Translations under genes and position numbers: made by a program
Shown here: positions 20,577 to 23,539 of the stretch, one piece after another
How the letters are laid out: each line of letters starts with the position of its first letter
Position numbering within the stretch: the first letter of the stretch is position 1
The notes under the pieces: generated by a model
Seen by the model: the letters and a program-made list of their open reading frames with translations, nothing else
The model's database searches: none
Told to the model about the DNA's origin: nothing
From: Gammaproteobacteria bacterium
Lineage (GTDB): Bacteria > Pseudomonadota > Gammaproteobacteria > Steroidobacterales > Steroidobacteraceae
Assembly: GCA_009692245.1 (NCBI GenBank)
Contig: SHZN01000004.1
Span: 1 to 35,980, forward strand
Reading direction: 5' to 3'
Length of the DNA stretch: 35,980 nt

Positions 20577-22436
20577 ATGAGCGAACACGCGACCGAAACC
20601 CGGGGGTTTCAGGCCGAAGTCAGCCGTTTGATGCGGTTGATGATCCATTCGATGTACAGCCACCGCGAGATTTTCCTGCGGGAGCTGATTTCCAACGCCT
20701 CCGATGCCTGTGACCGGCGGCGATTCGCCGCGCTCGCAGATCCCTCACTCGCGGGTGGCGGCGAGGCTTACGGGATCCGCGTCGATTTCGACTCAAAGGC
20801 TCGCACGCTGACTGTGTCCGATTCGGGCATCGGCATGACCCGCGATGAGGCGGGAGAGCATCTCGGCACGATCGCGAAATCCGGCACCGCCGAGTTCTTT
20901 GCGCGCCTGACCGGCGACGAGCAGAAAGACAGCCAGCTGATCGGGCAGTTCGGCGTCGGTTTCTATTCGGTATTCATCGTTGCGGAGCGCGTTGAAGTCC
21001 GCTCGCGCCGCGCCGGGATCGAGTCTGCTGTTGCGGTCTGCTGGAGCTCGAGCGGCGAGGGCGAATACACGCTCGAGACGATCACGCGCGACGAAATCGG
21101 CACGGCAGTCACCTTGCACCTGAAGGAGGATGCCGCGGAGTTCGCCGATCCATTCCGCCTGCGCGCGCTGATCCGGCGCTATTCCGATCACATCGCATTC
21201 CCCGTGCTGCTGCGCCCGGACGGAGGCAAGGGCGAGTATGACCGCGTCAACCAGGCGCAGGCCCTGTGGACGCGCCCGCGGCAGGAACTCAGCGACGACG
21301 ACTACCGCGAGTTCTATCGCCATGTCGCGCACGACGCCGCCGAGCCGCTCGCCTGGAGTCATAACCAGGTCGAGGGCCGCCGCGAGTACACGACGCTCCT
21401 GTACATACCGGCGGCCGCGCCATTTGACCTCTACAATCGCGAGTCGCCACGCGGTCTCCGGCTGTATGTGCGGCGCGTATTCATCCTGGATGACGCCGAG
21501 CAATTCCTGCCGCTGTTCTTGCGCTTCATCAAGGGCGTCGTCGATTCGGCGGACTTGCCGCTCAATGTATCGCGCGAGCTGCTGCAGCAGGATGCCGAAG
21601 TGCTGGCAATCAAGGGCGCGATCACCCGTCGCGTGCTGGAGATGCTCGCGCGGCTCGCCAACGACGAGCCGGAGAAGTACCGGACATTCTGGAAGGAATT
21701 CGGCGGCGTGCTCAAAGAAGGCGTCATCGAGGACCCCGGCAATCGCGAGCGGATCCTGCCGTTGCTGCGATTCGCGTCGACCGTAGGCGACGGCGAACTG
21801 CATTCGCTGGCCGATTACGTGGCGCGAATGCCAGAAGGCCAGAAGCAGGTCTACTACCTGCTGGCGGACAGCGCGACAGCCGCACGCCAGAGCCCGCAGC
21901 TCGAGGGCCTGCGCGCGCGCGGCGTCGAGGTGTTGCTGCTTTCGGATCGCATCGATCCCTGGCTCGCGACCCATCTCGACGAGGTCGACGGCCGCGTGAT
22001 CAAGGACGTGGCGAGCGGCGAACTCGAGCTTGCCGGATTGCCGCCACTCACCGCTGCAGTTGCACCGGTTGACACGATGCCGGCGCTCTATGCACGCATC
22101 GCCGCGCGACTCGCGGAACGGGTGGCCGGTGTGCGTGTGAGCACGCGCCTCGCCGAATCGGCCGCCTGCCTCGTGCGCGATTCCGCCGATCCTGGGCCCC
22201 AATTGCGCCGGCTGCTGGAGGCCGCTGGCCAGAAACTACCCGAATCCCGGTCGTGGCTGGAACTGAATCCGGCGCATCCGCTGGTCGTGCGGCTTCATCT
22301 TCTGCCGGACGGCGCCGCCTTCGACTCGCTCGCGGCACTGCTCGCTGATCAGGCGCAGATTGCCGAGGGCGGCGTGCCGCCGGATCCGGCCGGATTCGTG
22401 CGCCGGCTCAATGACTGGCTGCTCGGCAAGTACTAG
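20577..22436 (+). CDS. htpG: Molecular chaperone HtpG (Hsp90)
   Basis: MSEHATETRGFQAEVSRLMRLMIHSMYSHREIFLRELISNASDACDR...SDSGIGMTRDEAGEHLGTIAKSGTAEFF. Confidence 0.96.
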   Translation: MSEHATETRGFQAEVSRLMRLMIHSMYSHREIFLRELISNASDACDRRRFAALADPSLAGGGEAYGIRVDFDSKARTLTVSDSGIGMTRDEAGEHLGTIAKSGTAEFFARLTGDEQKDSQLIGQFGVGFYSVFIVAERVEVRSRRAGIESAVAVCWSSSGEGEYTLETITRDEIGTAVTLHLKEDAAEFADPFRLRALIRRYSDHIAFPVLLRPDGGKGEYDRVNQAQALWTRPRQELSDDDYREFYRHVAHDAAEPLAWSHNQVEGRREYTTLLYIPAAAPFDLYNRESPRGLRLYVRRVFILDDAEQFLPLFLRFIKGVVDSADLPLNVSRELLQQDAEVLAIKGAITRRVLEMLARLANDEPEKYRTFWKEFGGVLKEGVIEDPGNRERILPLLRFASTVGDGELHSLADYVARMPEGQKQVYYLLADSATAARQSPQLEGLRARGVEVLLLSDRIDPWLATHLDEVDGRVIKDVASGELELAGLPPLTAAVAPVDTMPALYARIAARLAERVAGVRVSTRLAESAACLVRDSADPGPQLRRLLEAAGQKLPESRSWLELNPAHPLVVRLHLLPDGAAFDSLAALLADQAQIAEGGVPPDPAGFVRRLNDWLLGKY

Positions 22437-22477
22437 CCGGCTGCATTCGCGGACTGCTGCAAAGCTGATATCTTTAA

Positions 22478-22661
22478 GGAACCTCTGAGCTACTCCCGCA
22501 TGGGCGCGACCGTGCGCGATTTTCGTCCCTGGCAAGGAGCGAGGAGCGATGTGTATCGGGATACATGAGCGACGAGCGACACCGCCAGGGGCGAAAATCG
22601 GCCGGTCCCAGCGGGTTGCGCGCGTGCAACGCGCCTCATGCGGGAGTAGAGCAGAGGTTCC
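22478..22661. repeat. 184-bp nested palindromic, MITE-like intergenic element (element B)
   Basis: Terminal inverted repeat GGAACCTCTGAGCTACTCCCGCATG (22478-22502) vs reverse complement of CATGCGGGAGTAGAGCAGAGGTTCC (22637-22661), 23/25; inner CGATTTTCGTCCCTGGC (22517-22533) vs GCCAGGGGCGAAAATCG (22584-22600), 16/17; apical TGTAT-CGGG-ATACA. Confidence 0.88.
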
Positions 22662-22664
22662 CTC

Positions 22665-23066
22665 ATGAGCGGCAGCAAGCCGACCGAAGACGAATTGCGC
22701 GCGCGCCTGTCGCCCGAGCAGTACTACGTGACTCGGCAACGGGGCACGGAGCGCGCATTCACGGGTGAGCATTACCGCAACGAAAAAACGGGCATGTACT
22801 TGTGCGTCTGCTGCGGAGAAAATCTTTTCTCGTCCGGGGCCAAATACGATTCCGGTTCCGGCTGGCCGTCATTCTGGCAGCCGGCGGCCGGGGCGCAGGT
22901 CGAGGCGCTGAAGGACGAATCGCACGGAATGCGCCGTACCGAAGTGTGTTGCGCAAAATGTGGCGCCCACCTGGGGCATGTTTTCGACGATGGCCCGCAG
23001 CCGACCGGGCAGCGTTATTGCATCAATTCGGCCGCGCTCGATTTCAAGCCGGAGCCGTCAAAATGA
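22665..23066 (+). CDS. msrB: Peptide-methionine (R)-S-oxide reductase MsrB
   Basis: [29 protein letters not shown]...[35 protein letters not shown]. Confidence 0.96.
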
Positions 23067-23539
23067 ATGCCCAGCGGCGATTCGCACTGGTGGTGGGCGC
23101 ATTGTCCCTGTTCGGCATGCAGGCCGGTGCGCAGGAAACTCCTGCGCCGGAAGCGCCGCTGGCGGAACCCCTGGTGATCACGGACCTCCTGCTCGGGGTC
23201 GGCGATGAGGCATTGCCGGGCATGGTCTGCCTCGTGCATTACACGGGCTGGCTGTATGACGAGCATGCCAAGGATCATCGCGGCCGCAGGTTCGACAGTT
23301 CGCGCGAGCGCGGGCCGCCATTCTCGTTTCCGCTCGGTGGCGGGCACGTGATCAAGGGCTGGGATCGTGGCATCGTCGGGATGAGGATCGGCGGCCTGCG
23401 GCGCCTCTTCATTCCGCCCGCGCTCGCATACGGCGATCGCAACATCGGCAATGGCACGGTCCCGCCACACTCGACACTTCTCTTCGAAGTCGAGTTGCTC
23501 GCCGTCGAGACCGTGACCGTCACCCCGCAGGCGCAATGA
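23063..23539 (+). CDS. FKBP-type peptidyl-prolyl cis-trans isomerase (secreted)
   Basis: [24 protein letters not shown] signal peptide; VHYTGWLYD...[50 protein letters not shown]; start overlaps msrB stop. Confidence 0.93.

Follow-up and report, generated by a model that had tools for sequence, protein, structure and literature searches.

A dispersed palindromic element, best classed as an IS5-type MITE, probably forms the msrB leader and seems to bring its own Shine-Dalgarno sequence in Steroidobacteraceae

The 184-bp palindrome between htpG and msrB in the window (the whole stretch of 35,980 nt of Steroidobacteraceae DNA analysed in this study) is an inserted copy of a mobile repeat, the arms of which covary, and its right arm carries an AGAGG motif just before the msrB start codon. 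The explanation that we favour, and that we consider probable, is that an IS5-type MITE was inserted here and became the leader of msrB with a new Shine-Dalgarno (SD) sequence, and that the second hairpin of the element was lost later.

The features of the region are listed in Table 1. The terminal arms, inner stem and apical hairpin described in the initial annotation were all recovered: the 25-nt terminal arms pair at 23 of 25 positions, the two mismatches being A.G and G.A, and the inner stem (22517-22533/22584-22600) pairs at 16 of 17 positions, with a G.U as the sole mismatch. The element ends at 22661 and is followed by CTC and the msrB ATG, i.e., it stops 3 bp before the gene as had been proposed, and near the msrB start no SD-like sequence was found besides the AGAGG inside the repeat arm. 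The predicted minimum free energy of the 184-bp RNA is -132.7 kcal/mol vs. -89.4 +/- 5.0 kcal/mol for shuffled sequences (z -8.6; 0 of 200 shuffles as good). In this predicted fold the SD is paired, as the initial annotation had supposed, and opening the AGAGG would cost ca. 17 kcal/mol in the full fold and ca. 12 kcal/mol when folding starts from the predicted transcription start. The palindrome had no match in Rfam, neither at gathering score nor at E values up to 5.

Table 1. Features of the htpG-msrB region (positions are those of the window).
Feature	Position	Strand	Basis or remark
htpG, upstream gene	20577..22436	+	NF003555, 720.9 bits; stop 41 nt before element
Probable extended -10 of msrB, TG A TATCTT	22466..22474	+	block TGnTATC(T/G)TT conserved in 5 congeners
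Left flank TAA (G062: TAG), apparent remnant of YTAR target (CTTTAA / CTTTAG)	22475..22477	+	flank comparison
Putative IS5-type MITE copy, 184-bp derivative of 269-bp unit with hairpin 2 deleted	22478..22661	+	orthologous copy in G062 is 269 bp, same site
Left terminal inverted repeat GGAACCTCTGAGCTACTCCCGCATG, partner of SD arm	22478..22502	+	23/25 complementary to 22637-22661
Hairpin 1, 17-bp stem plus tandem G.A internal loops	22517..22600	+	fold; conserved across family
Apical stem TGTGTATC/GATACATG	22550-22567	+	within hairpin 1
Scar of lost hairpin 2, GTTGCGCGCGTGCAACGCGCC	22615..22635	+	alignment with the G062 ortholog, ca. 85 bp longer here
Right terminal inverted repeat CATGCGGGAGTAGAGCAGAGGTTCC	22637..22661	+	compensatory changes vs. 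left arm in other copies
AGAGG, putative msrB Shine-Dalgarno inside right arm	22653..22657	+	7 nt before ATG; sequence
msrB	22665..23066	+	TIGR00357, 184.1 bits
FKBP-type peptidyl-prolyl isomerase	23063..23539	+	start overlaps msrB stop (ATGA)

The gene downstream of the element is under purifying selection with the element in place (msrB dN/dS 0.13 vs. the sister genome G062); the product of the next gene matches the FKBP models NF008150 and NF008602 partially and under cut-off. The transcription start of msrB is predicted at ca. 22481, inside the left arm. No -35 box was matched to the extended -10, the consensus scan gave no full sigma-70 promoter, and the scans of the region for intrinsic terminators and sigma-70 promoters returned nothing convincing. 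The conserved -10 block precedes the msrB start in the 5 congeners, and other genera possess TATAAT-like boxes just before the msrB ATG, which suggests that the msrB message of these relatives is leaderless or very short-leadered. Since the element lies between the -10 box and the ATG and the gene of the relatives looks leaderless, the element is probably the 5' leader of msrB here. Across the family (loci L100-L125) an ATAAT-like box often occurs 6-10 nt before the msrB ATG, downstream of htpG.

The htpG-msrB site holds a 269-bp copy in G062 and is empty in the congeners G076, G087 and G046. Compared with the copy in G062, ca. 85 bp, comprising hairpin 2, have been deleted from the window copy at short inverted repeats. 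On the right side of the msrB copy no target duplicate can be recognised (CTC here, TTG in G062). The MITE-like insertion proposed in the initial annotation is thus borne out by the empty sites, and it is further backed by the additional copies in G062 and by the IS5-like ends and the CTAG/YTAR target discussed below. The element is short and non-coding (184 or 269 bp), has 23-25 of 25 paired terminal positions, and occurs as several dispersed copies with filled and empty sites.

Copies were found well beyond this locus. The genome to which the window belongs, a draft of 1.62 Mb that is 76% complete and to which the counts refer, contains one full copy, a solo end (C41:8736) and, between parE and parC, the remnant of an end; solo ends of the GGAACCTCTGAGCTACTCCCGCATG type thus occur elsewhere in it. 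At the parE-parC locus (L231, at the edge of contig C41) the solo left end CTAGGGAACCTCCGA abuts the parC ATG and G062 has a full copy; judged from these sequences, the insertion is common to both genomes and has been lost almost entirely from the genome of the window. G062 itself has ca. 20 copies, most of exactly 269 bp, and the terminal-repeat pattern has 42 matches there vs. one for a control pattern. A covariance model detected the family in 17 of 150 Steroidobacteraceae genomes, distributed over 6 of 25 genera. In the full unit, the terminal inverted repeats enclose two hairpins joined by a GGYCCCNNNGGGTT linker: hairpin 1, which has tandem G.A internal loops, and hairpin 2, an inverted relative of hairpin 1, the covariance model matching both on opposite strands. 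One interior is combined with three types of terminal repeats (GGAACCTCTGATT, GGAAGCTCTGCACAGG and GGGCCTGTTNACACT); the two-hairpin interior was seen under these three types at, e.g., L016, L029, L170 and L195. Shortened copies of 50, 110 and 165-177 bp and solo ends occur elsewhere, indicating that erosion from within is the usual fate of the element.

Several related arrangements were encountered. One locus in G062 (L096, C75) has GGAACCTCTGATTGACC ends around an unrelated 115-bp interior. The hairpin-1 core, GAGGAGCGA and TGAGCGACGAG on either side of the stem, occurs in otherwise different palindromes in Alphaproteobacteria MAGs and Panacagrimonas (L054, L066, L069, L059). At L028 (G062, C133) and L034 the element lies between two stretches that are near-identical when one of them is inverted, with the same gene end on both sides; this is either a real inverted duplication or an assembly fold-back. 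The phage and plasmid collections and a pattern scan of viral contigs contained no full element; the only match in these scans, of 58 nt, was to the hairpin and lay on a Paraburkholderia plasmid.

The ends and the target point to the IS5 family. CTAG adjoins many of the copies, at one end or at both, and frequently supplies a TAG stop codon; in the window CTAG is rare (14 occurrences vs. 115 expected). The tetranucleotide is present on both sides at L028, L086, L009, L016, L029, L032, L169 and L170, i.e., as a YTAR/CTAG duplication, and IS5 is known to duplicate YTAR (PMC10359306). The congener G098 contains an IS5-family insertion sequence (NF033581, 331 bits) with the ends GGAAACTCTGAAGAACC / GGAAGGTCTGATTAACC, flanked by CTAA/TTAG. 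These ends are identical to the element end GGAACCTCTGATTAACC of G037 at 14 and 15 of 17 positions and match the elements of G062 and the window at 11-13 of 17. An insertion sequence with exactly matching ends was not found in G062 and G017, and DDE_Tnp_1 was absent from G062; because the high-copy genomes yielded no such sequence, the candidate mobiliser is derived from the one insertion sequence of the congener. MITEPsy1/ISPsy2 of Pseudomonas syringae offers a close parallel in that it inserts at CTAG or YTAA with a 4-nt duplication, has no coding capacity, and has CCTCTGA in its terminal repeat (GTATCCTCTGAAAAAGCC / GGAAGGTCTGAAAAAGCC), although MITEPsy1 is 100 bp long, has a different interior and no reported SD role for its ends (PMC3189936), whereas the family described here has a two-hairpin interior and ca. 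20 copies in one genome. From the IS5-like ends, the CTAG/YTAR target, the insertion sequence of G098 and the likeness to MITEPsy1, an IS5-type MITE appears to be the best class for the element.

Other dispersed palindromes share some of its traits. The Correia/NEMIS elements of Neisseria are also dispersed palindromic MITEs with a long terminal duplex and internally deleted variants that are co-transcribed with their neighbours, but they have other terminal repeats and another host and are known for RNase III cleavage and promoter effects. ERIC/IRU sequences of enterobacteria are intergenic imperfect palindromes, co-transcribed in operons and with an orientation-dependent effect on the neighbouring message; unlike the present family, they lack IS5-like ends and act on the upstream mRNA via RNase E. 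REPINs, i.e., REP doublets associated with RAYT, likewise contain two inverted hairpin units per element in which compensatory changes are common, but the msrB family has IS5-like terminal repeats at CTAG. An association with REPIN/RAYT (Y1_Tnp) was not supported, a Y1 transposase being absent from the window's own genome and from six carriers (G130, G099, G108, G024, G063 and G106); the core hairpin was not found near the Y1_Tnp genes examined. The literature, covered incompletely, contained no report of this repeat family nor of a MITE that supplies an SD, and the words "ribosome" and "Shine-Dalgarno" are absent from a 2024 review of MITEs.

Read outward, each end of the element gives GAGGTTCC. 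The genus contains 17 distinct GGAACC-type insertions, and in eight of them the start codon of a long ORF follows at a distance of 2-5 nt; these ORFs are msrB, parC, rplR, aceE, hslU and a paaE-like, a cyanophycinase-like and a nuclease-like gene (the last three names rest solely on inspection of the translations). In the start-adjacent copies the GAGG of the arm is kept 6-9 nt before the start and constitutes a canonical SD, except in the hslV-hslU copy, where hslU keeps its native GGAG. Copies in G062 sit between parE and parC, between rplF and rplR, and before aceE, and for parC and rplR the GGAGG or AGAGG of the element is the only canonical SD. The empty aceE site reads GGGAGTAGCGCTG-ATG, with a native GGGAG 8-9 nt before the ATG; the empty rplR site reads TAAGGCC-ATG, and at the empty parC site the stop and start lie within 1-3 nt. 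A near-complete deletion between rplF and rplR in G087 left exactly TCGGAGGTTCC before the rplR start (0 of 5000 shuffles), a weaker remnant, GCCGAGGTTTCC, precedes aceE in G098 (88 of 5000 shuffles), and solo ends in other genomes retain the SD as well. The AGAGG of msrB, spaced 7 nt from the start, fits a purine-rich complement of the anti-SD at 5-9 nt. Its position and the empty sites of the relatives agree with the proposal of the initial annotation that the insertion placed a new SD before msrB. The supply of an SD is very likely genuine and a general trait of the family, and we infer that this SD functions in translation.

The conservation of the motif should, however, be interpreted with care. 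GAGG is present in every copy, also in copies away from any start codon. Its conservation therefore does not speak for selection on translation, and the SD is best interpreted as a side effect of the end that the transposase binds. Moreover, since the element inserts at stop codons in tight operons, start codons near the operon copies are partly expected. The outward GAGGTTCC ends together with a CTAG/YTAR target that is often a TAG stop would explain why insertions are tolerated even before essential genes.

The pairing of the arms has been maintained. Compensatory changes occur in 47 of 98 consensus pairs, including most pairs of the terminal repeats, and at the fixed msrB locus two arm pairs differ on both sides between the window and G062 (T-A to G-C at position 9, C-G to G-C at position 19). 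Divergence of the element is 8.6% vs. 18.1% at fourfold sites (p 0.005), about half the rate. These double changes and this slow divergence, together with the fully paired SD, would suit a structural switch in which the leader hides the msrB SD until heat, oxidation or a protein opens it, thus regulating msrB and the FKBP gene. Such a switch nevertheless seems unlikely to us. The non-standard pairs comprise 32 G.U and 27 A.C cells with no strand preference, a pattern that would arise if pairing were maintained in the DNA or through arm-arm correction; copies between convergent genes pair equally well; and RNA thermometers are typically less stable than this stem. The same paired SD also precedes the unrelated essential genes rplR, parC and aceE in G062, so strong translational repression by the fold is unlikely unless ribosomes or RNase III open the stem. 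The structural control of msrB and FKBP put forward in the initial annotation is, as a tight off-switch, therefore disfavoured, and a regulatory role of the fold at msrB would not be the most economical interpretation. The orientation bias in the genus (hairpin 1 first relative to the downstream gene in 8 of 8 cases) was set aside as a sign of RNA function because copies in genus g17 are mostly reversed and the element is quasi-symmetric. Termination of htpG transcription is a highly improbable role for the strong hairpins: the two weak terminator-like matches both use a TTTT inside the stem, no U-run follows the main hairpin, and termination by the copies inside the rplF-rplR and parE-parC operons would be lethal.

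The near parity of G.U and A.C and the occurrence of GAGG whatever the context would also be accounted for by a selfish DNA palindrome, the arms of which are matched via the transposase or hairpin-templated correction and the SD of which is coincidental and without translational effect; copies between convergent genes and 50-bp end-to-end remnants fit this explanation as well. We consider it improbable, since start codons lie 2-5 nt from the end at 8 of 17 sites (ca. 4% by chance, a rough assumption rather than a measured background), the insertions at msrB, aceE and L031 adjoin a start although no stop codon lies at their opposite end, the deletion remnant keeps exactly the SD, and no SD other than that of the element precedes parC and rplR in G062. 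A third candidate is a processing or stability element comparable to Correia/NEMIS, in which cutting of the outer duplex would separate the htpG and msrB messages. The terminal duplex of 25 bp is near-perfect, and Correia elements are cut by RNase III at their terminal repeats (PMC10969869, PMC2229807), although those repeats differ from the present ones. By this analogy such processing is quite possible, if short of probable, and, as cutting would free the SD, it is compatible with the favoured MITE explanation.

According to that explanation, the MITE, a non-autonomous element, would have been inserted between the -10 box and the start codon of msrB in the common ancestor with G062, the lineage of the window losing hairpin 2 afterwards. 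The insertion would have replaced a near-absent leader by a structured one of ca. 184 nt ending in AGAGG-N7-ATG, which may act as the new msrB SD; similarly, a copy between two genes would keep the upstream stop and provide the downstream gene with a canonical SD. The SD would be used after opening of the outer stem. In most folded transcripts opening is predicted to cost 17-20 kcal/mol; covering of the initial 13 nt of the left arm, or a cut in the stem, lowers this to 2-6 kcal/mol, so that in these models the SD could plausibly be released by RNase III or by a ribosome that terminates. For the operon copies the opener may be a ribosome that finishes at the stop codon next to the element; msrB has no such adjoining stop, and RNase III cutting the long stem seems more likely there. 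The aceE copy of G062, which has no upstream gene to couple to, is predicted to open its SD for 9 kcal/mol. At this locus (L040, between the divergent pyrC and aceE) the left-arm pairing opposite the SD is lost and the SD is intact. We regard as doubtful a further proposal, that of a mobile bridge for translational coupling, in which the fold would hold the upstream stop beside the downstream start and a ribosome at the stop would cover the left arm and free the SD ca. 260 nt downstream. If true, the element could insert inside essential operons with coupled translation preserved or re-created.

An insertion between the translation signal and the start of an essential gene should be lethal, yet members of this family are repeatedly found there, and the element carries a replacement SD at the right spacing. 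It thus seems, on present sequence comparisons, to arrive at an intergenic site with a translation signal of its own, and a leaderless-looking msrB was probably converted into an SD-led gene by the insertion. The natural and datable set of insertions provides a way to ask how mobile elements rewrite translation initiation.
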